Below, piece by piece: positions 12,271 through 62,028 of a DNA stretch of 64,000 bases. The translations under genes and the position numbers were made by a program. The notes beneath the pieces were generated by a model, which saw nothing but the letters and a program-made list of their open reading frames with translations, did not search any database and was not told where the DNA came from. The DNA lies in contig NC_079887.1 in assembly GCF_029227915.1 (NCBI RefSeq), forward strand, positions 19,529,650 through 19,593,649. Reading direction: 5' to 3'. This DNA is from Hydractinia symbiolongicarpus. Its lineage: Eukaryota; Cnidaria; Hydrozoa; Anthoathecata; Hydractiniidae. Within the stretch, counting starts at the first letter, position 1; each line of letters begins with the position of its first letter.

Positions 12271-12535
12271 CTGTCCCTGTTTGTTCTTGTCCACGGTGAC
12301 TATCATAACCCCAGCTTCTAGCTATTTTGGTAGCCTCCCTCCAACATAATCAGATGTAGTTAACATATAGTATATATAAAAATGAATTAATATTTCTAGG
12401 CTTTATATATTTACTGCATAATTGTAACCGTAGATTATTGGTAAAAAATATATTACTATTATTATGTATCAGCTTTGAAAGAACAACTGTCGTATCATGG
12501 TAAACAAGGGCGGCAAGTAGTTGCAACTATATACT

Positions 12536-13184
12536 AGTAATATAGCTATAATATGTATAATTTCAACACCTTACATGTGCGTCATAACCTCATAATTTGC
12601 TGCATGGCTTTAATATTTCAATAAAATCAAACGAGTTTGATTTTAATAATATTATTGGTGATCTGGTTTCGAATGCCTTTTGTTTGTGTGACATTATCTG
12701 CTAGCGTTGTTGTGGCAACGATGTTATGAAATTAAATGAAATTATAACGATATTTTAACAAATCATAAGTATATTGTAGAAAAATTATAACTGTATTATA
12801 GAATATATTTAATGATATTATACAAGTGTATCCTGGCCTTAACTAACCTGCAATGTTAAAATACAACTCAATAAATAAAAATAAAATTCATGAATAATTA
12901 ATTAGTTCTGCTGAATATAGCTTTAGTCTACGTGCTTGAAAAATTGTACAGAAAGAAATGACGTAACATCAAAGATGGCGCATTATAAGACGATCTTCAT
13001 TATGCTACACTGCACGAGCTTTAACTTTCGATAGCATATAAACTTTATAATAAAGTATTGTTCATTGGATAATAAAACAATCTTTGCACTGTTAGGATTC
13101 TTATTGGCTTAAAACTCATTTTAGCCTCGTTCTCAGAAAAAAATCTTTAGCCTGGATAAGTTTCGGGCGTCCAGCCTAGCTGCA
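12536..13184. repeat. 0.65-kb dispersed repeat, copy 1
   Basis: Matches 33488-34150 over its whole length at high identity: TAATATAG..TATAATATG start, the palindrome AATCAAACGAGTTTGATT, the TCTGGTTTCGAATGCC segment and the GCGTCCAGCCTAGCTGC end. Differences are point changes and small indels. In this copy the repeat is followed by the SAP-domain gene; in the other copy by different sequence. Nature unknown: a MITE-like element or piece of a larger one. Confidence 0.8.
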
Positions 13185-13515
13185 CTGTCTCTATCTCTCT
13201 ATCTCCTCAGGCGATTTTAAAGATTCCGCCTTCCCTGGCGGAAATAAAAAACAATGGGATATATTTCTCTTTATTGTGATGGTCACGGGGTCAATGTACA
13301 CAAAGTGATTTAATAAGAAAAGTTGAAGATCAAAATGGCAAAAATTCACACGGCGCGGTCAATTTCGTCTGAATTCACTTGTAGGGAAAAATTCATAATG
13401 GCTGCGATTGTTTTGGTGTACTTGGCTAGATAAATAATAATAAATCGAAGAAAAACGTTGTATATTGCAATAGTATATAGTTTATTTATGATATCGATTA
13501 TTAAAGTTTATAAAC

Positions 13516-21507: not shown

Positions 21508-21894
<387 letters not shown>

Positions 21895-23225: not shown

Positions 23226-23489
23226 GTGTAATAGGGCATATTCTGTTGATCTATTTGGTCAAAAACCCCACTGATGTTCACTTATGAGGTTGAATTGGTT
23301 AAGATGATTGTCTATTTGAGCTGAAAGTATTTTCTCAAAGATCTTACTAGGAATATTTTTATTATTTTTTTATTTTTTATTTATTATACTTAACAGTGTT
23401 ACAGGACGATAATTATCACAGTCTTGTTTCGAACCTTTCTTAAATAAACATTTTACTTTCCCTGTTTTCCAACTAGATGGATATTTAAC

Positions 23490-24230
23490 TCAGTTGATAC
23501 TTCCTTTAATTACTTCATACAGGCCACAGTTTTGAGGTCCAATAAGTTTTAAATGTTTTGCAGATATCTGATCAGCACCAAACGCTTTACCTTCTTTTAC
23601 GCTGTTTTTAAATGATTTTTCATACAACTTATAGGAACAATTAATGGTGTTAATACATGGAGTTACTCTATATATGTGCTGTATGCTATGGTCAGGTGAA
23701 ACTCTCCCATTTAACCTCTTGCCAACAGTTGCAAAGTGATGATTAAGTAAATTTGCCTTGGCTTGGTCATCTGAAATTTTTCCATGTTGTTCATCTTTTA
23801 GAGTAGCAATTTCACAATTTGATACCTTACCCTGAAAATCATTTACAGTTTTCCAGAATGACTTACTACTTGATACACCATTAAACTTTTCTTTCCAATA
23901 ATCCTTTTCTGCAAGACGAACAAGGTTTGTACATTTTTTTTTCAACTTCTTATATGCCTTCCATTCTGTTGAGCCTTTTAATGTTTTAAGAGCTTTTAAA
24001 AGCAATTTGTGTCTGTTGTTTAGTTCTTTTCGTATTTCACCATTTATCCATGGTTTTAAATTCTGTCTAACCTTAACTTTTCTGACAGTTACATGTTTTG
24101 TTGCAATCGATTTACAGAGGTGTTCCCAACACCAAAGTGAATCGTCAACATCATCGATTACAGAACAAATCTGACAAGGAACATTCTCAAAATCTTTTAT
24201 TAATTTCGATTCATCAAGGCACTTTGACAC
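23490..24230 (-). CDS. LINE linker and RT amino-terminal segment (left copy)
   Basis: 246 residues that continue the endonuclease ORF after a stop at the junction. The WKAYKKLKKKCTNLVRLAEKDYW region is the basic linker typical between endonuclease and RT of CR1-like elements, followed by SFWKTVNDF and GADQISAKHLKLIG, the first RT motif. It stops in SIN* at 23490, and the next RT motif (CDNYRPVTLLS) lies in the following 100 bases. Identical in length and position to 32604-33344 in the inverted arm. Confidence 0.8.
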   Translation of the reverse strand: MSKCLDESKLIKDFENVPCQICSVIDDVDDSLWCWEHLCKSIATKHVTVRKVKVRQNLKPWINGEIRKELNNRHKLLLKALKTLKGSTEWKAYKKLKKKCTNLVRLAEKDYWKEKFNGVSSSKSFWKTVNDFQGKVSNCEIATLKDEQHGKISDDQAKANLLNHHFATVGKRLNGRVSPDHSIQHIYRVTPCINTINCSYKLYEKSFKNSVKEGKAFGADQISAKHLKLIGPQNCGLYEVIKGSIN

Positions 24231-24231
24231 T

Positions 24232-25092
24232 TCAATGAATTTTGTTGTTCGCTTCGGTTTTTTTAAAATTAAGTGATGTATAAACCAAATGATGGTCGGA
24301 GATACATGGATCGTAACATCCAGTCAGACAAATATGAGATTTGCTGAAAAGTTGCGTTGTTATAATGAGATCTATTAGACTGCTTGATGTATCTGTCATA
24401 CGTGTTGGTTGTTTAATCAAGTTCACCAAATTAAAACTATACAAGGACTTTGCAAAACTGTTAGTTACCGCATTTTCAGTTTTGTTTGAGTTAGACAAGT
24501 CATAGTTGAAATCTCCTAAAATAACCATGTTTTTACGTTTTGAACACACTGATTCCAATATTGGCACCCATTTATTTAAGAATTTTTTTTCACTTGGAGG
24601 TCGATAAATACAAGCTACTAATGTCTTTTGAGAATTCACAATAACATTTAACCAGATGGATTCAATATTTACAATTTTATCACCAAAGTCTGATTCTGAT
24701 ACATTTAAAGCATTGGAAATGTACATTAGACAACCTCCCCAGTGGTCTTTGCCGTTGTTCCGATCCTTGCGGTATATTTTATATCCTTCTATTGAGATTT
24801 CCGAATCACATATTTCCGTTGATAAATGTGTCTCGGTTATGGCAAGAATGTCAAAGTTAACTTCATTTAATAAAATTGCAACTTCATGAAATTTTCTTTG
24901 CAGTCCATTGATATTTATATGACCAATAAGTACACCATTGGAACCAGAAAGATTTCTAACCAGTTGATCATGAACAATAACCATGTTTGGATACCAGTTT
25001 TTCAAGTAGATAAGTATTTGTGATTGATGTTCTTCTTTGTAAGATCCACATCCATTATAAGATAAGATCTTGAGTAAAAGCCAATTAAACAA
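24232..25092 (-). CDS. LINE apurinic-like endonuclease domain (left copy)
   Basis: 286 residues. APE-type endonuclease motifs are in order: GHININGLQRK, AITETHL with the catalytic Glu, YRPPS, GDFNYDL with catalytic Asp/Asn, and ISDHHLVY with the catalytic Asp-His near the C-terminus. The enzyme nicks target DNA to prime reverse transcription. The ORF starts MFNWLLLKILSYNG and ends two bases before the next ORF. It is intact, unlike the RT. Differs from the inverted copy at 31742 by one residue noted (Asn versus Tyr after GDFNYDLS). Confidence 0.85.
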   Translation of the reverse strand: MFNWLLLKILSYNGCGSYKEEHQSQILIYLKNWYPNMVIVHDQLVRNLSGSNGVLIGHININGLQRKFHEVAILLNEVNFDILAITETHLSTEICDSEISIEGYKIYRKDRNNGKDHWGGCLMYISNALNVSESDFGDKIVNIESIWLNVIVNSQKTLVACIYRPPSEKKFLNKWVPILESVCSKRKNMVILGDFNYDLSNSNKTENAVTNSFAKSLYSFNLVNLIKQPTRMTDTSSSLIDLIITTQLFSKSHICLTGCYDPCISDHHLVYTSLNFKKTEANNKIH

Positions 25093-25870
25093 AATTCAAC
25101 CAAAATTCAAGCTGGTAAGACTGATAATAGGCACCAACAGCCGTGTCAACAATTTCACAGCAAGTGGTTAGCTGTTAGGACTGCAATAACCGGATTTAGC
25201 AGCCTTAACCGTCCACTTTGTCTACATACAATTATATACCCTTAAACTTAAACTCAGGGACCTTAAACTCAGGGACCTAGAAATAGTGTGAGTTTTTATA
25301 TCTGTAGTAGATTCATTGGTACATTCATTCCCTTCAGGTTTTATTAACGGTATTGGGAATTATAATGTAGGCACTCACTACGACAAGCTCCACACCTCGG
25401 TGATCACGATTATTCTTCCTATTGTAACTTGCGAGAGGACGTCTTAAGGTTTATTCATTGTAGTGAAGGCTCTCAGGTTTGTCATTTTAAAAACCTTATG
25501 AACTTTCTCTTGATATATATACAGAATTGATAAGGTCAAAGTTATGACGATGCTGGCAATGTATCTGTTAAAATTAATTGTCATGCTAACATTTTAAAGC
25601 AAAACAGATTAGCTTTATACATATCCTTGTTCTTCTCCTTGCTTAAATTTAGTTGTCTGTAATTTATGCTTTGTACATTATTTCTGAAACATGATGAATT
25701 GAATCAAACATAACATATCTTTACAAATTTTCCAAAAGTAGTTTAAAATTTTTACGCAAGAATGTTCCTTACTTAACTATTAATCCCAACTATGTCCATA
25801 ATTTTAATATTTGTAACACGATGTGTGGAACGTATTATTAACACAAGGGTTTTCAATGATTTGTATTAAG

Positions 25871-27176
25871 CACGGTCATTTACGGCAGGAAAAAAAGTGT
25901 GCGCATGCGCCATTATTTGTTATCAAATTTTCTGCCGCAAGCGATTCATAATGGCCCCCATCGCACGTGCTTTAAATTTCCCTTAAAAACAAATGTTTTT
26001 CGAGCCTCTGCGGTAGAGATCATCTCTTAAAAAAGATTTTATTTTAGTAGAGCAGGCTTTGGACTATACAAAAACTCTGGATTCCACTACCCGATCACTT
26101 TCACTTTTGTTGGGAGGAGACAGAAAGAATAGCAATGTTTTGATCATAAAATTTTATGTGTTGGTGGAAAATGAAGATATTTGCCTTCCAACGCAAAGTC
26201 ATGCTTTAAGACATGTTTTTCCTGAAAGCTGATAGCCTATTTTATCAAATAAAACCAGTGGTTTGTGGCTGCCACTTTTTTTCTGAAAGAAATTGGTCCT
26301 TGGAAATGACCTTTCACCACAAGACTTCATAAATCGGTAAATATCATTATTTTAAATGAAAATTGTGCACTCAATAAGATAAATATAAGCAATAAACCAG
26401 TGTTAGATGTGAAAAATGTTGCTTGTGGCTACCCCCTAACCTTTCACAGTCAGGGTAAACACTTAATTAGGCGACGGTAGGCTAATTAGGGCATACCACC
26501 TATTTAGACGACTCATTGTACCCTAGTTAGACCATATGTAACCTAGTTAAGACATTACAATATTTAATGGCTTCTCACACATTCCTAAGAAAAATCGCAA
26601 AAACACTGTTCAGAATGAATAGTCTACGCAACCATGATTCCAAAATTGTCACTCGTGCCTCGATATGCTCGCGCAAGTAAGAATTATGTTAAAATGAAAT
26701 ATTACATGTCGCCTATTTAGGTGACGATAGTAAAATCCACAATAATTTAATGAAGATATTCTTTCACAAAAAACGCAAAAAAAAAGTATTTTTTTTAAGA
26801 TGGATGTGGTAACAATTTGTTTTGTAACGTTTCTTTTTTATTCACATCCTGTTTTAACATCATTAAAATCTTAGTCAAACAATACCACGTTTCCTGTGGC
26901 GTCGATGGCTGAAATCCATTATTTAAAACAACAAATATTGCCACACAAGGTTTGGGTCGCAACCAAGGGCGAAATAGTAGTCTATGGTCATCCTTCTTTA
27001 GTTTTAAAAGAAAAAAATGTTATATTTTCTTTTATTGGGCAACTAAAACAAGATAATAGAGAGTGAGGTCAATATCGATGACGTCATAATCTTATGCCGT
27101 AGGCGATTTTTTTAAAAAAATTTTTGGCGCATGCGCACACTTTATTTCCTTAAAATCGCGGTTTTGAACGACCGTG
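25871..27176. mobile_element. 1.3-kb non-autonomous DNA element, CAC ends (left arm copy)
   Basis: Ends are inverted: CACGGTCATTTACGG at 25871 and, reversed, CACGGTCGTTCAAAACCG from 27176. Both continue through gapped similarity into a GTGTGCGCATGCGCC block (25898-25912 and, inverted, 27125-27139). Flanks are TAAG (25867-25870) and TAAG (27177-27180), a 4-bp duplication. CAC termini with 4-bp duplications fit Chapaev-type elements of the CMC group, but there is no transposase. The interior carries degenerate repeats of AATTAGGCGAC/TAGTTAGACCAT type (26464-26560). Confidence 0.6.
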
Positions 27177-27316
27177 TAAGGCATTTTGTCCATGGTTCCA
27201 TTTCATTATATTTTTGAATTTTTTATTATATTTATGAAGAAAGAAGATTTTGATTTGGTTATTTTTTAATGACCTCCAATCTGCAGAAAACTTTATTTTG
27301 GTGCTAAATATGAAGA

Positions 27317-27489
27317 ATAGTCGTTGCCCGTGGAGAAATCCACGGGTTCGCACGTCCTTTATATTTACCCGTCGCAACAAAGTGGATAAAAATATATCGC
27401 ATTTGATATTCGTGTTTCCGTAACATTATTTTCAAACTCAGCGGGGGGTCCGCGCAGAGACAGACAGACAACGGCTATTATTATAGAGA
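27317..27489 (-). mobile_element. Short Helitron-like element (left arm copy)
   Basis: Minus strand. Begins TCTCTATAATAATAGCC, carries TTGTCTGTCTGTCTCTG, and ends with the hairpin CCGTGGATTTCTCCACGG followed about 8 bases later by CTAT (canonical ends are CTRR). Start and hairpin closely match the two Helitrons at 60476-61921. The base outside the TC start is T, not the expected A. Confidence 0.6.
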
Positions 27490-29344
27490 AGAAGAATGAA
27501 CATTCTAATTATTGCTTTAATAACTTTCAATCTATAAAAAACATTATGATGGTGTCGTGTTGTCTTATTGCTGGTTTGATTACACCCTTGATGATAAAGT
27601 TTTTAATGTATTTTATGTTGTCATTTATTCCCATTTTTCGATCAATTCGATCAATACTTAACGTCTATCCCGTATGTCACAAAGTTTCAGTGCTTAATGG
27701 GCGTATAAAGATGTTGGCTTCCAGGGCTCGGCCCTGGATCCGTTGGGGAGCTCACAACGCCCCCCAAACACCCAGTTGGTTATTATTATCATCTCCGGTG
27801 CGTTGTTGACCCTACGGGTCAATGGTTTTACTAAGGTTAATTTTTTTCTGAATACGCCCCTGATAAAAAGCTGTTACAACTAAAGTACATAAACCATTCA
27901 TGGTTATTTCAAATCAAAGATGTTTTTTTTGATTTTCACTAAAAAGTACATTTAAAACCTACTTATTTTCAGCCCATACAGACATGGAATTTCTGTAAAA
28001 ATGTTGTTAGAAAGATATATAGGTAGTTAGTCGTGAAATAAAGTTTTTTATTTGGTATTATAGTAGTTATCTTAGCAGATTTTAGGATTTAGAAATCTAT
28101 ATATATTTTTCTCTCGCTTAAAATTTATTTTCTGGCTGCCACAAAATAGTTTCTTGTTTGCCTCTCCTTTAATAAATTTTTGACGAAAATTGTTACTTTT
28201 TTCACTCGATAAGTCAAATCCCCTCAGTCTCGGTTATCCCAATTTTTTTCTGCTTACTTTACGCTTTTTGGGAACGGGGTCGCTATTTTTAAGAACACTG
28301 TCCCATTCGAAAATATCATTCGAATAAAACTGTGAAAAACAAAACAAACCGAAAACGTTTTTGCGTTGTTCATATGAGTTGCGTAAGTTAAGTTGGTGTC
28401 AGGTTAGGTAACAACAACAGCTCATGCAATACGTCACAAAGAACAACGAATGGTTGGAATTATATAGCATTATCTCAAAATGTATGTCAAATAAGGTTAG
28501 TAGTTCAAATAAAGTTTGATTAGTCTTTGCACAGAGGCAACGTTAGCTAAAATTTTCTACTTAAGACACAAGTAATGGAAGATAACTTTGACTTGGTCTA
28601 CAGCTTTTTGTAATTTTTTTATAAGTATGAATTAGCTAGATAAATGAATTGAGATTTTTAACGATTTTCTTTCGACTTTTGTGATACGAATAAACAGTAA
28701 AGATAAAAAAAATCATCTTTACCAATAAAGCGTATTGACGGGAATGTTTTCTATAAACGGTCCGAACCTACTTTTTCTTTCTTTGTATCTATGTACACGT
28801 AACATTGCTGAGTTTACCTTTATTTCTGCTTTGTATTAAAATGTTTTCAAGGTTTTTTACTAAGCGCGTATTCGGATTTTTTTATTCTCGTTCTCCGATT
28901 TTTCTAGATTTTTTTGTTAAACAAACAGAAAAACTCGGGAAGCGGAAAAGTGTGTTTAAATATAGACCCCTATAAGATCATCTATGCTGCAAAGTGTTTG
29001 CTGTTTATACGCTCTGAAACAAATGCATATGTAAATATCTTTTCACAGGGCTTATTTTTCGCAATCTTATAGTGGCTAAGGCCACTCCAGCACGCATATA
29101 ATATTAAAAGTAAACAAGAAACCCAGGGGCTTGAAGATTTCCGCCATTAGCCTACAAGATTTTAAAATTTGAAGTTGATCTTGAAAACGGAGAATTATTA
29201 GGTAAACAAATCATTGACTATTCTCAATTATTATTGTAAAGGGCCTGATACACTGGTACATAATCACTGAAATATAACTTATAATATCAATGTAATTTCT
29301 TAAAATATGTTCAAAATACAGTTATAATTTCTTATAATTTCTTA
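27490..29344. other. Spacer of the inverted duplication
   Basis: 1855 bases present once. No gene is recognised; ORF 27546-27809 has no motif. Contains an AT-rich stretch with ordinary composition. It would be the loop if the arms paired. Confidence 0.6.
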
Positions 29345-29517
29345 TCTCTATAATAATAGCCGTTGTCTGTCTGTCTCTGCGCGGACCCCCCGCTGAGTTT
29401 GAAAATAATGTTACGGAAACACGAATATCAAATGCGATATATTTTTATCCACTTTGTTGCGACGGGTAAATATAAAGGACGTGCGAACCCGTGGATTTCT
29501 CCACGGGCAACGACTAT
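29345..29517 (+). mobile_element. Short Helitron-like element (right arm copy)
   Basis: TC start at 29345 preceded by A, hairpin CCGTGGATTTCTCCACGG at 29490-29507, CTAT at 29514-29517. Mirror copy of 27317-27489. The A|TC junction fits Helitron insertion between A and T. Confidence 0.65.
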
Positions 29518-29657
29518 TCTTCATATTTAGCACCAAAATAAAGTTTTCTGCAGATTGGAGGTCATTAAAAAATAACCAAATCAAAATCTTCTTTCTTCAT
29601 AAATATAATAAAAAATTCAAAAATATAATGAAATGGAACCATGGACAAAATGCCTTA

Positions 29658-30963
29658 CACGGTCGTTCAAAACCGCGATTTTAAGGAAATAAAGTGTGCG
29701 CATGCGCCAAAAATTTTTTTAAAAAAATCGCCTACGGCATAAGATTATGACGTCATCGATATTGACCTCACTCTCTATTATCTTGTTTTAGTTGCCCAAT
29801 AAAAGAAAATATAACATTTTTTTCTTTTAAAACTAAAGAAGGATGACCATAGACTACTATTTCGCCCTTGGTTGCGACCCAAACCTTGTGTGGCAATATT
29901 TGTTGTTTTAAATAATGGATTTCAGCCATCGACGCCACAGGGAACGTGGTATTGTTTGACTAAGATTTTAATGATGTTAAAACAGGATGTGAATAAAAAA
30001 GAAACGTTACAAAACAAATTGTTACCACATCCATCTTAAAAAAAATACTTTTTTTTTGCGTTTTTTGTGAAAGAATATCTTCATTAAATTATTGTGGATT
30101 TTACTATCGTCACCTAAATAGGCGACATGTAATATTTCATTTTAACATAATTCTTACTTGCGCGAGCATATCGAGGCACGAGTGACAATTTTGGAATCAT
30201 GGTTGCGTAGACTATTCATTCTGAACAGTGTTTTTGCGATTTTTCTTAGGAATGTGTGAGAAGCCATTAAATATTGTAATGTCTTAACTAGGTTACATAT
30301 GGTCTAACTAGGGTACAATGAGTCGTCTAAATAGGTGGTATGCCCTAATTAGCCTACCGTCGCCTAATTAAGTGTTTACCCTGACTGTGAAAGGTTAGGG
30401 GGTAGCCACAAGCAACATTTTTCACATCTAACACTGGTTTATTGCTTATATTTATCGTATTGAGTGCACAATTTTCATTTAAAATAATGATATTTACCGA
30501 TTTATGAAGTCTTGTGGTGAAAGGTCATTTCCAAGGACCAATTTCTTTCAGAAAAAAAGTGGCAGCCACAAACCACTGGTTTTATTTGATAAAATAGGCT
30601 ATCAGCTTTCAGGAAAAACATGTCTTAAAGCATGACTTTGCGTTGGAAGGCAAATATCTTCATTTTCCACCAACACATAAAATTTTATGATCAAAACATT
30701 GCTATTCTTTCTGTCTCCTCCCAACAAAAGTGAAAGTGATCGGGTAGTGGAATCCAGAGTTTTTGTATAGTCCAAAGCCTGCTCTACTAAAATAAAATCT
30801 TTTTTAAGAGATGATCTCTACCGCAGAGGCTCGAAAAACATTTGTTTTTAAGGGAAATTTAAAGCACGTGCGATGGTGGCCATTATGAATCGCTTGCGGC
30901 AGAAAATTTGATAACAAATAATGGCGCATGCGCACACTTTTTTTCCTGCCGTAAATGACCGTG
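29658..30963. mobile_element. 1.3-kb non-autonomous DNA element, CAC ends (right arm copy)
   Basis: Mirror of 25871-27176, including the TAAG-type flanks (here read CTTA). Duplicated passively as part of the arm and not an independent insertion. Confidence 0.6.
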
Positions 30964-31741
30964 CTTAATACAAATCATTGAAAACCCTTGTGTTAATAAT
31001 ACGTTCCACACATCGTGTTACAAATATTAAAATTATGGACATAGTTGGGATTAATAGTTAAGTAAGGAACATTCTTGCGTAAAAATTTTAAACTACTTTT
31101 GGAAAATTTGTAAAGATATGTTATGTTTGATTCAATTCATCATGTTTCAGAAATAATGTACAAAGCATGAATTACAGACAACTAAATTTAAGCAAGGAGA
31201 AGAACAAGGATATGTATAAAGCTAATCTGTTTTGCTTTAAAATGTTAGCATGACAATTAATTTTAACAGATACATTGCCAGCATCGTCATAACTTTGACC
31301 TTATCAATTCTGTATATATATCAAGAGAAAGTTCATAAGGTTTTTAAAATGACAAACCTGAGAGCCTTCACTACAATGAATAAACCTTAAGACGTCCTCT
31401 CGCAAGTTACAATAGGAAGAATAATCGTGATCACCGAGGTGTGGAGCTTGTCGTAGTGAGTGCCTACATTATAATTCCCAATACCGTTAATAAAACCTGA
31501 AGGGAATGAATGTACCAATGAATCTACTACAGATATAAAAACTCACACTATTTCTAGGTCCCTGAGTTTAAGGTCCCTGAGTTTAAGTTTAAGGGTATAT
31601 AATTGTATGTAGACAAAGTGGACGGTTAAGGCTGCTAAATCCGGTTATTGCAGTCCTAACAGCTAACCACTTGCTGTGAAATTGTTGACACGGCTGTTGG
31701 TGCCTATTATCAGTCTTACCAGCTTGAATTTTGGTTGAATT

Positions 31742-33490
31742 TTGTTTAATTGGCTTTTACTCAAGATCTTATCTTATAATGGATGTGGATCTTACAAAGA
31801 AGAACATCAATCACAAATACTTATCTACTTGAAAAACTGGTATCCAAACATGGTTATTGTTCATGATCAACTGGTTAGAAATCTTTCTGGTTCCAATGGT
31901 GTACTTATTGGTCATATAAATATCAATGGACTGCAAAGAAAATTTCATGAAGTTGCAATTTTATTAAATGAAGTTAACTTTGACATTCTTGCCATAACCG
32001 AGACACATTTATCAACGGAAATATGTGATTCGGAAATCTCAATAGAAGGATATAAAATATACCGCAAGGATCGGAACAACGGCAAAGACCACTGGGGAGG
32101 TTGTCTAATGTACATTTCCAATGCTTTAAATGTATCAGAATCAGACTTTGGTGATAAAATTGTAAATATTGAATCCATCTGGTTAAATGTTATTGTGAAT
32201 TCTCAAAAGACATTAGTAGCTTGTATTTATCGACCTCCAAGTGAAAAAAAATTCTTAAATAAATGGGTGCCAATATTGGAATCAGTGTGTTCAAAACGTA
32301 AAAACATGGTTATTTTAGGAGATTTCAACTATGACTTGTCTTACTCAAACAAAACTGAAAATGCGGTAACTAACAGTTTTGCAAAGTCCTTGTATAGTTT
32401 TAATTTGGTGAACTTGATTAAACAACCAACACGTATGACAGATACATCAAGCAGTCTAATAGATCTCATTATAACAACGCAACTTTTCAGCAAATCTCAT
32501 ATTTGTCTGACTGGATGTTACGATCCATGTATCTCCGACCATCATTTGGTTTATACATCACTTAATTTTAAAAAAACCGAAGCGAACAACAAAATTCATT
32601 GAAGTGTCAAAGTGCCTTGATGAATCGAAATTAATAAAAGATTTTGAGAATGTTCCTTGTCAGATTTGTTCTGTAATCGATGATGTTGACGATTCACTTT
32701 GGTGTTGGGAACACCTCTGTAAATCGATTGCAACAAAACATGTAACTGTCAGAAAAGTTAAGGTTAGACAGAATTTAAAACCATGGATAAATGGTGAAAT
32801 ACGAAAAGAACTAAACAACAGACACAAATTGCTTTTAAAAGCTCTTAAAACATTAAAAGGCTCAACAGAATGGAAGGCATATAAGAAGTTGAAAAAAAAA
32901 TGTACAAACCTTGTTCGTCTTGCAGAAAAGGATTATTGGAAAGAAAAGTTTAATGGTGTATCAAGTAGTAAGTCATTCTGGAAAACTGTAAATGATTTTC
33001 AGGGTAAGGTATCAAATTGTGAAATTGCTACTCTAAAAGATGAACAACATGGAAAAATTTCAGATGACCAAGCCAAGGCAAATTTACTTAATCATCACTT
33101 TGCAACTGTTGGCAAGAGGTTAAATGGGAGAGTTTCACCTGACCATAGCATACAGCACATATATAGAGTAACTCCATGTATTAACACCATTAATTGTTCC
33201 TATAAGTTGTATGAAAAATCATTTAAAAACAGCGTAAAAGAAGGTAAAGCGTTTGGTGCTGATCAGATATCTGCAAAACATTTAAAACTTATTGGACCTC
33301 AAAACTGTGGCCTGTATGAAGTAATTAAAGGAAGTATCAACTGAGTTAAATATCCATCTAGTTGGAAAACAGGGAAAGTAAAATGTTTATTTAAGAAAGG
33401 TTCGAAACAAGACTGTGATAATTATCGCCCTGTAACACTGTTAAGTATAATAAATAAAAAATAAAAAAATAATAAAAATATTCCTAGTAA
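31742..33490 (+). mobile_element. Truncated inverted copy of the LINE (endonuclease and RT start)
   Basis: ORFs 31742-32602 (endonuclease, motifs AITETHL, GDFNYDL, SDHHLVY) and 32604-33344 (linker, GADQISAKHL) match the left copy almost perfectly. After CDNYRPVTLLSI and the A-rich tract the match stops at 33490, before the AFDC, GVPQGS and ADD motifs. It cannot retrotranspose. Confidence 0.9.
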
Positions 33491-34150
33491 TATTAATAAT
33501 ATAGCTATAATATGTATAATTTCAACACCTGACATGTGCGTCATAATCTCATAATTTGCTGCATGGCTATAATATTTGAATAAAATCAAACGAGTTTGAT
33601 TTTAATAATATTGTTGGTGATCTGGTTTCGAATGCCTTTTGTTTGTGTGACATTATCTGCTAGCGTGGTTGTGCCAACGATGTTATGAAATTAAATGAAA
33701 TTATAACGATATTTTAACAAATTATAAGTACATTGTAGAAAAATTATAACTGTATTATAGAATATATTTAATGATATTATACAAGTAGTGTATCCTGGCC
33801 TTAACTAACCTGCAATGTTAAAATACAACTCAATAAATAAAAATAAAATTCATGAATAATTAATTAGTTCTGCTAAATATAGCTTTAGTCTACGTGCTTG
33901 CAAAATTGTACAGAAAGAAATGACGTAACATCAAAGATGGTGCATTATAAGACGATCTTCATTATGCTACACTGCACGAGCTTTAACTTTCGATAGCATA
34001 TAATCTTTAAAATAAAGTTTTGTTCATTGGATAATGAAACAATCTGTTGCACTGTTAGGATTCTTATTGGCTTAAAACTCATTTTAGCCTCGTTCTCAGA
34101 AAAAAATCTTTAGCCTGGATAAGTTTCGAGCGTCCAGCCTAGCTGCGCTG
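33488..34150. repeat. 0.65-kb dispersed repeat, copy 2
   Basis: Matches 12536-13184. Starts at the right edge of the inverted arm with TAATATTAATAATATAGC where copy 1 has TAATATAGC directly after CTAG. Both copies end near GCTGTCTC, after which the flanks are unrelated. Because its left edge is the arm junction, its true 5' limit is unknown. Confidence 0.8.
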
Positions 34151-34154
34151 TCTC

Positions 34155-60048: not shown

Positions 60049-60475
60049 AAAATAATGATTTTGAAGCTTAGGGTGATTTGTCTAACTACATTGTAAAGGA
60101 ATATGACAGGGATATAGAAAAACACTATAAAATTTTGATGTTCTAAAGCCTACCTTTGCTAGTAATGGAACCCCAGTAGACATAACGGTATCACGTAATA
60201 AAACTCGTCTTGACTCGTCCTTTTATGATTAAAACAAAGGTGAGTTTACGATAACTGTTGTGTTTCGTCATGATGTTATTATGAAAAATTGAAACAGAAA
60301 TATATCATTACTTCCAATCTATTTTCGAGGTGTCTGTATTATTCGTCTGTACCCTATTGGTTTCTTGCAAATGTGACTGCCTTTATTTCAATATCTTTTC
60401 CAATCGTCTTTGGTCATTTCTAGTGGTGTTATAGGTTTCAGGTGGTTTAGGTATATTGTTTTTGCTAGTTTCTAA
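60049..60475. other. Intergenic stretch
   Basis: No gene is seen. Probably the tail of the virus-like block; it ends at the A (60475) into which the Helitron pair inserted. Confidence 0.4.
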
Positions 60476-61199
60476 TCTATATAATAATACGGAGCTTCTG
60501 TCTGTGACTTTTGCGAAGTGGATAAAATTTCTTTGATAAAGTCTATAAAACATCGCCTATAAATTTGTTCTGTAAATTAGCAAACTTTGACGTTAAAGCA
60601 ATATTGACGTCAAAGGAAAGTATATTAAGATCAGTGAAGGCAATGCATTGCACTTTTAAAATTAAGGCTTAATAACTTAGAAACGGGTGGAAATAACTGA
60701 CGTCATTTCCTGCGTGGGTAACTAGGGACTACCTGGGACCAAGTTGGGTAAGTTTTCCAAACCTGGGTCACCAAATCCGTTTCGGAATGGACGGGTAAAT
60801 GACGTCATAAAAAAACCTTTAAACCCTAATATCTCTGCATCCGTTTGTCTCAAGTACACGATCCTATACATTTTCTTGATCAGCGTTTCAAGATCTATAC
60901 GATGAAGGCAATAGGTACACAAATTTCTTGAAAATAAATTTTTGGGTTTGACAGGCCATTGCTGACGTCAACAAAATTTTTAACACCTTATATCTCCTTA
61001 GGCTTTTGTCGGATACATATGATCCTATACATTATTGTGATCAGCGTTTTAACCTTTACACGTTATAGGCAACGAATAAACTAAACTTGGCCAATTTTTT
61101 TTGTACCTGTACTGTTGACGTTAGCAAAAAATCTAAAACAACCTATTTTTCCATTGTCCTTCTGCCTAAGTGGATTTCTCCACGGGCTTTATCGACTAG
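60476..61199 (+). mobile_element. Non-autonomous Helitron 1 (724 bp)
   Basis: 5' end TCTATATAATAATACGG preceded by A (60475). 3' end: hairpin GTGGATTTCTCCAC (61171-61184) then CTAG at 61196-61199. TC start, hairpin near the end, CTRR terminus and A/T target are the Helitron rules. No Rep/helicase gene, so mobilised in trans. Contains several GACGTCA strings. Confidence 0.85.
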
Positions 61200-61921
61200 T
61201 CTTATATAATAATACGGAGCTTCTGTCTGTGACTTTTGCAAAGTGGATAAAATTTCTTTGATTAAGTCTATAAAACATCGCTTATAAATTTGTTTTGTAA
61301 ATTAGCAGACTGACGTTAGAGCAATATTGACGTCAAAGGAAAGTATATTAAGATTAGTGAAGCCATTGCATTGCACTTTTAAATTTAAGGCTAAATAACT
61401 TGGAAACGAGTGGAAATAACTGACGTCATCTCCTGCGTGGGTAACTAGGGACTACCTGGGACCAATTTGGGTAAGTTTTCCAAACCTGGGTCACCAAATC
61501 CGTTTCGGAATGGACGGGTTAATGACGTCATAAAAAACCTTTAAACCCTAATATCTCTGCATCCGTTTGTCACAAGTACACGATCCTATACATTTTCTTG
61601 ATCAGCGTTTCAAGATCTATACGATAAAGGCAATAGGTACACAAATTTCTTGAAAATAAATTTTTGGGTTTGACAGGCCATTTCTGACGTCAACAAAATT
61701 TTTAACACCTTATATCTCCTTAGGCTTTTGTCGAATACATATGATCCTATACATTATTGTGATCAGCGTTTTAACCTTTACACGTTATAGGCAACGAATA
61801 AACTAAACTTGGCCAATTTTTTTTGTACCTGCACTGTTGACGTCAGCAAAAAATCTAAAACAACCTATTTTTCCATTGTCCTTTTGCCTAAGTGGATTTC
61901 TCCACTGGCTTTATCGACTAG
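61200..61921 (+). mobile_element. Non-autonomous Helitron 2 (722 bp), directly abutting Helitron 1
   Basis: Starts TCTTATATAATAATACGG at 61200, the base right after the CTAG of Helitron 1. Ends with hairpin GTGGATTTCTCCAC and CTAG (61918-61921) followed by T. Differs from copy 1 at scattered positions, e.g. GCAAAGTGG for GCGAAGTGG and CTCCACTGG for CTCCACGGG. ORF 61809-61997 has no meaning. Confidence 0.85.
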
Positions 61922-62028
61922 TAATAATAATAATAGTAATAATAATAATAACCGATTTATTTCAAGCATATCCATAAATTACATGGTTGTAGAATAAAGA
62001 CATCAGTAAAAGGATTAGGGTAACATCA
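61922..62028. repeat. AAT-type microsatellite after the Helitron pair
   Basis: TAATAATAATAGTAATAATAATAATAACC, then non-repetitive sequence. Lies at the Helitron target site. Confidence 0.8.

Follow-up and report, generated by a model that had tools for sequence, protein, structure and literature searches.

Results

An inverted duplication with Helitron-type ends

The window described here, a stretch of 64,000 nucleotides from the hydrozoan Hydractinia symbiolongicarpus (assembly GCF_029227915.1, contig NC_079887.1, positions 19,529,650 to 19,593,649 of the forward strand), contains two inverted 4.1-kb arms, each carrying a 173-bp short Helitron together with DNA that lies beyond its terminator, and the right arm interrupts an interspersed repeat, here termed E. 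The features concerned are listed below (positions are those of the window; ^ marks a junction; LINE, long interspersed nuclear element).

23347..27489, minus strand: source segment (left arm), from self-comparison; the LINE continues past 23347
27317..27489, minus strand: source short Helitron, 173 bp, with terminator CTAT and 5' flank base T, from comparison with family copies
27490..29344, no strand: spacer of 1855 bp separating the 5' ends of the two head-to-head Helitrons, with the left half of E at its right end
29112..29344 (start approximate), plus strand: left half of E, the target repeat, with TTTCTTA as its last bases, from similarity to E copies
29345..33487, plus strand: inserted copy, 5'-TC ... 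CTAG-3', 4143 bp, between A 29344 and T 33488, from comparison with the source and with empty-site paralogues
29345..29517, plus strand: copied short Helitron, 173 bp, TCTCTATAATAATAG...hairpin...CTAT, identical to the source
29488..29507, plus strand: Helitron 3' hairpin CCCGTGGATTTCTCCACGGG, apparently passed; the 44-nt stretch folds at -16.5 kcal/mol
29514..29517, plus strand: apparently passed terminator CTAT (mostly CTAG in the family), the same in both arms
29518..33487, plus strand: captured flanking DNA, 3970 bp, derived from the exact arm coordinates
29878..30964, plus strand: captured copy of an interspersed repeat of ~1.09 kb, from similarity search
31739..33487, plus strand: 5' part of a decayed LINE within the captured DNA, with the endonuclease domain but ending before the reverse transcriptase domain match, from open reading frames (ORFs) and from Pfam on the left-arm counterparts
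33446..33478, plus strand: 33-bp AT-rich insert, mirrored at 23356-23388 and thus in both arms, ending 5 nt before the new CTAG
33484..33487, plus strand: CTAG forming the new 3' end, which belongs to the LINE itself and is found in the source as well as in 6/6 further LINE copies read
33488..34154, plus strand: right half of target repeat E, from similarity to E copies
33488..33496, plus strand: TAATATTAA, 9 bases that the aligned empty sites lack, from the E alignment

Self-BLAST of the window aligns 23344-27496 with 33490-29339 (minus) at 99.8% identity over 4153 columns, and base-level comparison reduces this to an exact copy of 4143 bp per side, 29345-33487 (plus) against 23347-27489 (minus), with six substitutions (0.14%) and no indel. 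The 4.1-kb inverted duplication, lying about 1.9 kb from its source in opposite orientation, that had been proposed in an earlier sequence-only reading of this DNA is thereby confirmed. The ends of the right arm are likewise those that had been read: it starts with TC at a Helitron-type 5' end, A^TCTCTATAATAATAG at 29344/29345, and stops at CTAG^T at 33484-33488, the last four bases of the copy (33484-33487) conforming to the CTRR of a Helitron 3' end. Those base-level readings of the earlier account that were compared with the sequence proved correct. Source and target both read TAA after CTAG, which leaves a 3-nt ambiguity, or microhomology, at the 3' junction.

The left arm is the source, as had been supposed, because its LINE runs on through the break at 23347, where the right-arm LINE ends, and is continuous in relatives as well, six other LINE copies carrying CCTAGTAAGATC at the break position. 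The left arm thus holds the source Helitron followed by the same flank that is found in the copy, and the roughly 4 kb said to have been captured past the hairpin of the short Helitron amounts to 3970 bp, including the repeat copy and the 5' part of the LINE. For the ~1.09-kb repeat by itself, 29 near-full-length matches occur elsewhere, whereas the composite of short Helitron, following spacer, and ~1.09-kb repeat is matched over its full length only by the two arms (best 40 of 1556 candidates scored in both cases), as expected for one event. The 33-bp AT-rich insert is missing in 5/5 further LINE copies with sequence at this position, and a sixth copy, L109, has a deletion here; since it is present in both arms, it is most simply older than the duplication.

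The Helitron family and its terminators

The 15-base 5' end TCTCTATAATAATAG occurs at 674 + 676 sites in the 480.9-Mb genome (76 contigs) as compared with 3 + 1 sites for the pattern read backwards, and is therefore a real repeat terminus, shared by 1350 sites. In L002 and L003, two relatives present as solo copies, the ends are A^TC...CTAG^T. That the source Helitron is preceded by T, previously entered as a caveat, is correct but counts for less than had been feared, because the flank base is also T in relatives L005 and L077 and G in L074, so that a 5' flank other than A is not exceptional.

The terminator of the source is CTAT, which differs from CTAG in the last base only, and its hairpin is intact; in the copy, this original terminator lies inside the inserted DNA (29514-29517). 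Family terminators were surveyed with a pattern that allows A, G or T at three variable positions, so that forms with C there escape it, and among the first 100 of 484 listed, 94 read CTAG, three CTAA, two CTAT, and one CTGG, T following in all. CTAT stands after the family hairpin end at 33 genome sites, two of which are the arms; at the other 31, a near-identical second unit follows in six (giving a pair), the sequence runs CTA^TC-like into a Helitron-like start in 18, and something else follows in seven. The six pairs with a first unit ending in CTAT (L070, L072, L073, L075, L076, and L093) form a two-unit family. Where their 5' end was read (L070, L072, L073, L075, and L076), four distinct flanks end in A and one abuts another element, and at the 3' side 4/6 read CTAG^T, L072 reading CTA^TCTC and L075 deviating at the end. 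In this six-locus family, the CTAT-ended unit was thus passed and the pair moved as one.

A separate tandem arrangement, two ~740-bp copies with 95.7% identity at 60472-61935, starts near a Helitron-like 5' end (TCTATATAATAATACGG at 60476) and includes a hairpin-like stretch with CTAG near 61165.

Helitron enzyme genes are present in the genome: Pfam Helitron_like_N gives 151 matches (best 150 of 435 candidates scored), and 14 of those listed have an open frame of at least 1500 aa with no stop inside the match. Some sets share both score and frame length (1506 aa, 2029 aa) across contigs, which suggests, judging by scores and lengths, recent autonomous elements. These enzymes may serve the short-Helitron family.

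The landing site in repeat E

The sequence after 33488 has 54 matches (best 40 of 1094 candidates scored), identifying the interspersed repeat E that the right arm interrupts, and when the two E flanks are joined they match E copies continuously (L011, 92.4% over 910 columns; L012, 93.2% over 908; L013, 92.5% over 916). The site was examined in 40 loci, 30 from the right-flank search, including the window's own two copies, and 10 from the left-flank search. An uninterrupted TTTCTTA^TAATATAG-like site (at most two substitutions) is found in 20/40, with the exact 15-mer TTTCTTATAATATAG in 16; the remaining 20 include both copies in the window, loci that hold just half of E, and copies that are interrupted or diverged. 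One E copy each has probably given the two halves L010/L110 and L016/L111, and L025 and L026 are not independent because they have their flanks in common.

Compared with these empty sites, which are paralogous and not allelic, the insert TC...CTAG lies between A and T; the target has lost no base, and the two sides of the insert show no duplication. An empty A^T site, which the sequence-only reading lacked, is thereby supplied by E paralogues; an allele without the insertion was not found, the E-flank searches giving full identity only at the window itself (best 40 candidates each). The possibility that CTAG belongs to the flanking repeat, raised by copy A of E, which reads CTAG^TAATATAGC at 12531, is ruled out, since the empty sites read TTTCTTA and CTAG is thus foreign to E.

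Copy A (12531-13191) itself seems to be divided at the same A^T, with its probable left half 20.8 kb upstream (positions 19521106-19521342 of the contig). It is not counted as a Helitron insertion: its right junction is CTAG^T, but the left half goes on with ATGCCG, not TC. A 9-base deletion is common to copies A and B and unseen in the other aligned copies. Two of the 20 uninterrupted sites, L014 and L033, have a Helitron-like insert a few bases away, and the centre of E may be an insertion hot spot, judging from the Helitron-like inserts in its short AT-rich stretch in L014, L033, L016/L111, and L115.

Other features of the window

The Rfam scan of the window gave nothing at the gathering threshold, and the LINE, THAP, and Helitron content marks the DNA as eukaryotic. 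A long AT array (623 bp) occupies 1443-2065, a tandem ~1.25-kb duplication with 86.7% identity 4735-7237, and a perfect ATAG array (387 bp) 21508-21894. Between 14657 and 17058 lie minus-strand pieces of an integrase core (rva_4) gene, adjoining a plus-strand ORF whose match to HECT is weak and barely exceeds the cut-off.

Discussion

The results described above support, on the whole, the Helitron read-through interpretation given in the sequence-only reading, and we regard it as probable that the right-arm copy was made by Helitron 3' end bypass. In the predicted course of events, a Rep/helicase transposase supplied in trans would nick the short non-autonomous Helitron (173 bp) at its 5' TC end, position 27489 on the minus strand, and termination would fail at the CTAT that follows the hairpin. 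Copying would then run on through 3970 bp of flank, comprising the repeat copy and the 5' part of the LINE, to end at the fifth CTAG along the path, and the 4143-bp product would enter between A and T of E, an older repeat 1.86 kb from the donor, so that the two Helitrons come to stand head to head. The divergence of 0.14% between the arms suggests that the event was recent. The altered terminator may have helped the read-through; a causal role of CTAT in the bypass is only suggested.

Several observations weigh against this course of events. No hairpin precedes the new CTAG, the last 44 nt folding at 0.0 kcal/mol versus -16.5 at the short Helitron's own end, and the insert is therefore not a canonical Helitron; this caveat, foreseen in the earlier reading, is weaker than it had seemed, since new 3' ends of Helraiser are also described without a palindrome (PMC4778049). 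Four earlier CTAG strings were passed from 29345 on (30288, 30308, 31554, and 33358), and the insert as a whole contains 45 CTRR strings, its own end included, so that the objection that many such strings had been passed carries less weight than feared, only these four being earlier CTAG. Flank A precedes 589/1350 of the family 5' ends genome-wide, where head-to-tail arrays supply some of the other flanks. In L069 and L078, the first unit of a pair ends in CTAG, and the second begins alike in both; CTAG is thus no bar to pairing, and the CTAT pairs are no proof that CTAT causes bypass, so that of the earlier claim on the terminator, the presence of CTAT in both arms stands by base comparison, whereas its favouring of bypass is at most suggested. 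Nine extra bases, TAATATTAA, follow the new CTAG. The 33-bp AT-rich insert, 5 nt from the break, may mark a fragile site, may have stalled copying, or may be coincidence. Finally, the copy landed only 1.86 kb from its donor, whereas Helraiser is reported to be without local clustering; this proximity is partly a matter of ascertainment, because the reading of one window can find near pairs only.

The serious rival, which we nevertheless consider unlikely, is break repair by filler-DNA or break-induced copying, whose product would be nearly the same as that of bypass. An ordinary family Helitron already resident in E at the same A^T would have been broken and repaired from the inverted Helitron 1.86 kb away, with copying through the flank and rejoining at the resident CTAG by microhomology (CTAGTAA, if TAA followed the resident end). 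Such repair accounts for both the proximity and the inverted orientation, yields TC and CTAG^T for free, and corresponds to a published model, filler-DNA capture (PMC6544945, as far as the cited part of that study goes). A resident element would also suit the centre of E, which is hit by Helitron-like sequences in L014, L033, L016/L111, and L115. The body of the source Helitron cannot decide between the two explanations, because its first 137 bases are identical to those of relative L074, so that the 5' part is compatible with a resident copy. What tells against repair is the 3' side: leftover hairpin or body of the resident element would be expected after the captured DNA, of which at most CTAG remains, and rejoining would have had to occur within the last bases of a 173-bp element. 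Nor is the captured DNA internal with the old 3' end kept, as in filler-DNA capture, since no further family hairpin separates E from the captured DNA.

Replication template switching, or another inverted duplication made without Helitrons, would explain why the copy is inverted and local, the 3-nt microhomology at one junction, and the AT-rich insert 5 nt from the break, as a fragile site. The arm ends would then have to agree with Helitron ends by chance, and since rough arithmetic, which allows for the 3-nt ambiguity, puts the joint chance of a Helitron terminus, an A^T target, and an end reading CTRR at ~1e-6 for one terminus per arm length and at ~6e-9 for the genome-wide terminus density, we hold this origin to be very improbable. 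We give slightly less weight still to an assembly artefact. The evidence is that of the assembly, and palindromes are hard to assemble; the arms, however, differ by six substitutions, and the insertion lies at one defined A^T of an independent repeat.

Returning to 3' end bypass, its significance here is that several parts of one capture event are legible together, namely its source, the changed terminator, the new 3' end, and, via paralogues, the target as it was when empty. Two ideas thereby become directly testable, one being that capture is driven by damage to the terminator and the other that large palindromes can arise from Helitrons. As a speculation that we ourselves rate as doubtful, a bypass product might insert in cis, near its donor and head to head, before a free circle is released, which would make bypass an unrecognised maker of long palindromes with 4-kb arms, for which the change of CTAG to CTAT with an intact hairpin would suffice as the trigger. 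The palindrome outcome may be less known, as no title on a Helitron-made palindrome was found among those listed in the literature searches, which is weak evidence and does not show absence from print.

Read-through capture as such is already known from Helraiser and bats (PMC4778049), and the present case, set beside the cited parts of that study, is new and unusually complete, its less usual feature being the head-to-head landing 1.86 kb away, which gives an inverted repeat with 4.1-kb arms. For Helraiser, read-through is reported in ~11.7% of events with the end intact and in at least 36% of those without the hairpin. The copy described here resembles the 3' transduction of Helraiser and HelibatN in that TC stands beside A, flank is captured past the terminator, the new end lacks a palindrome, and there is a short overlap with the target (2 nt in the Helraiser examples). 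It is unlike them in that the short Helitron keeps an intact hairpin and departs from CTAG in the last base only, and in that the new end is CTAG, which is not predicted from the two read-through ends given there (CTAC and AATG) and in this respect speaks against bypass; the 701 Helraiser insertions, moreover, are described as showing no clustering near donors, unlike the local landing here. Hel1 filler-DNA capture in insects is comparable in that a Helitron gains host DNA with a traceable source, but according to the cited part of that report (PMC6544945) the captured DNA is internal, with end junctions of 2-13 bp at the source loci, whereas here it extends from the old terminator to the new end. 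Closest at hand are the head-to-tail Helitron arrays and pairs of the same genome, which belong to the same family and in which a unit boundary has likewise been crossed; those join Helitron units, whereas the right-arm copy joins a Helitron to unrelated flank.

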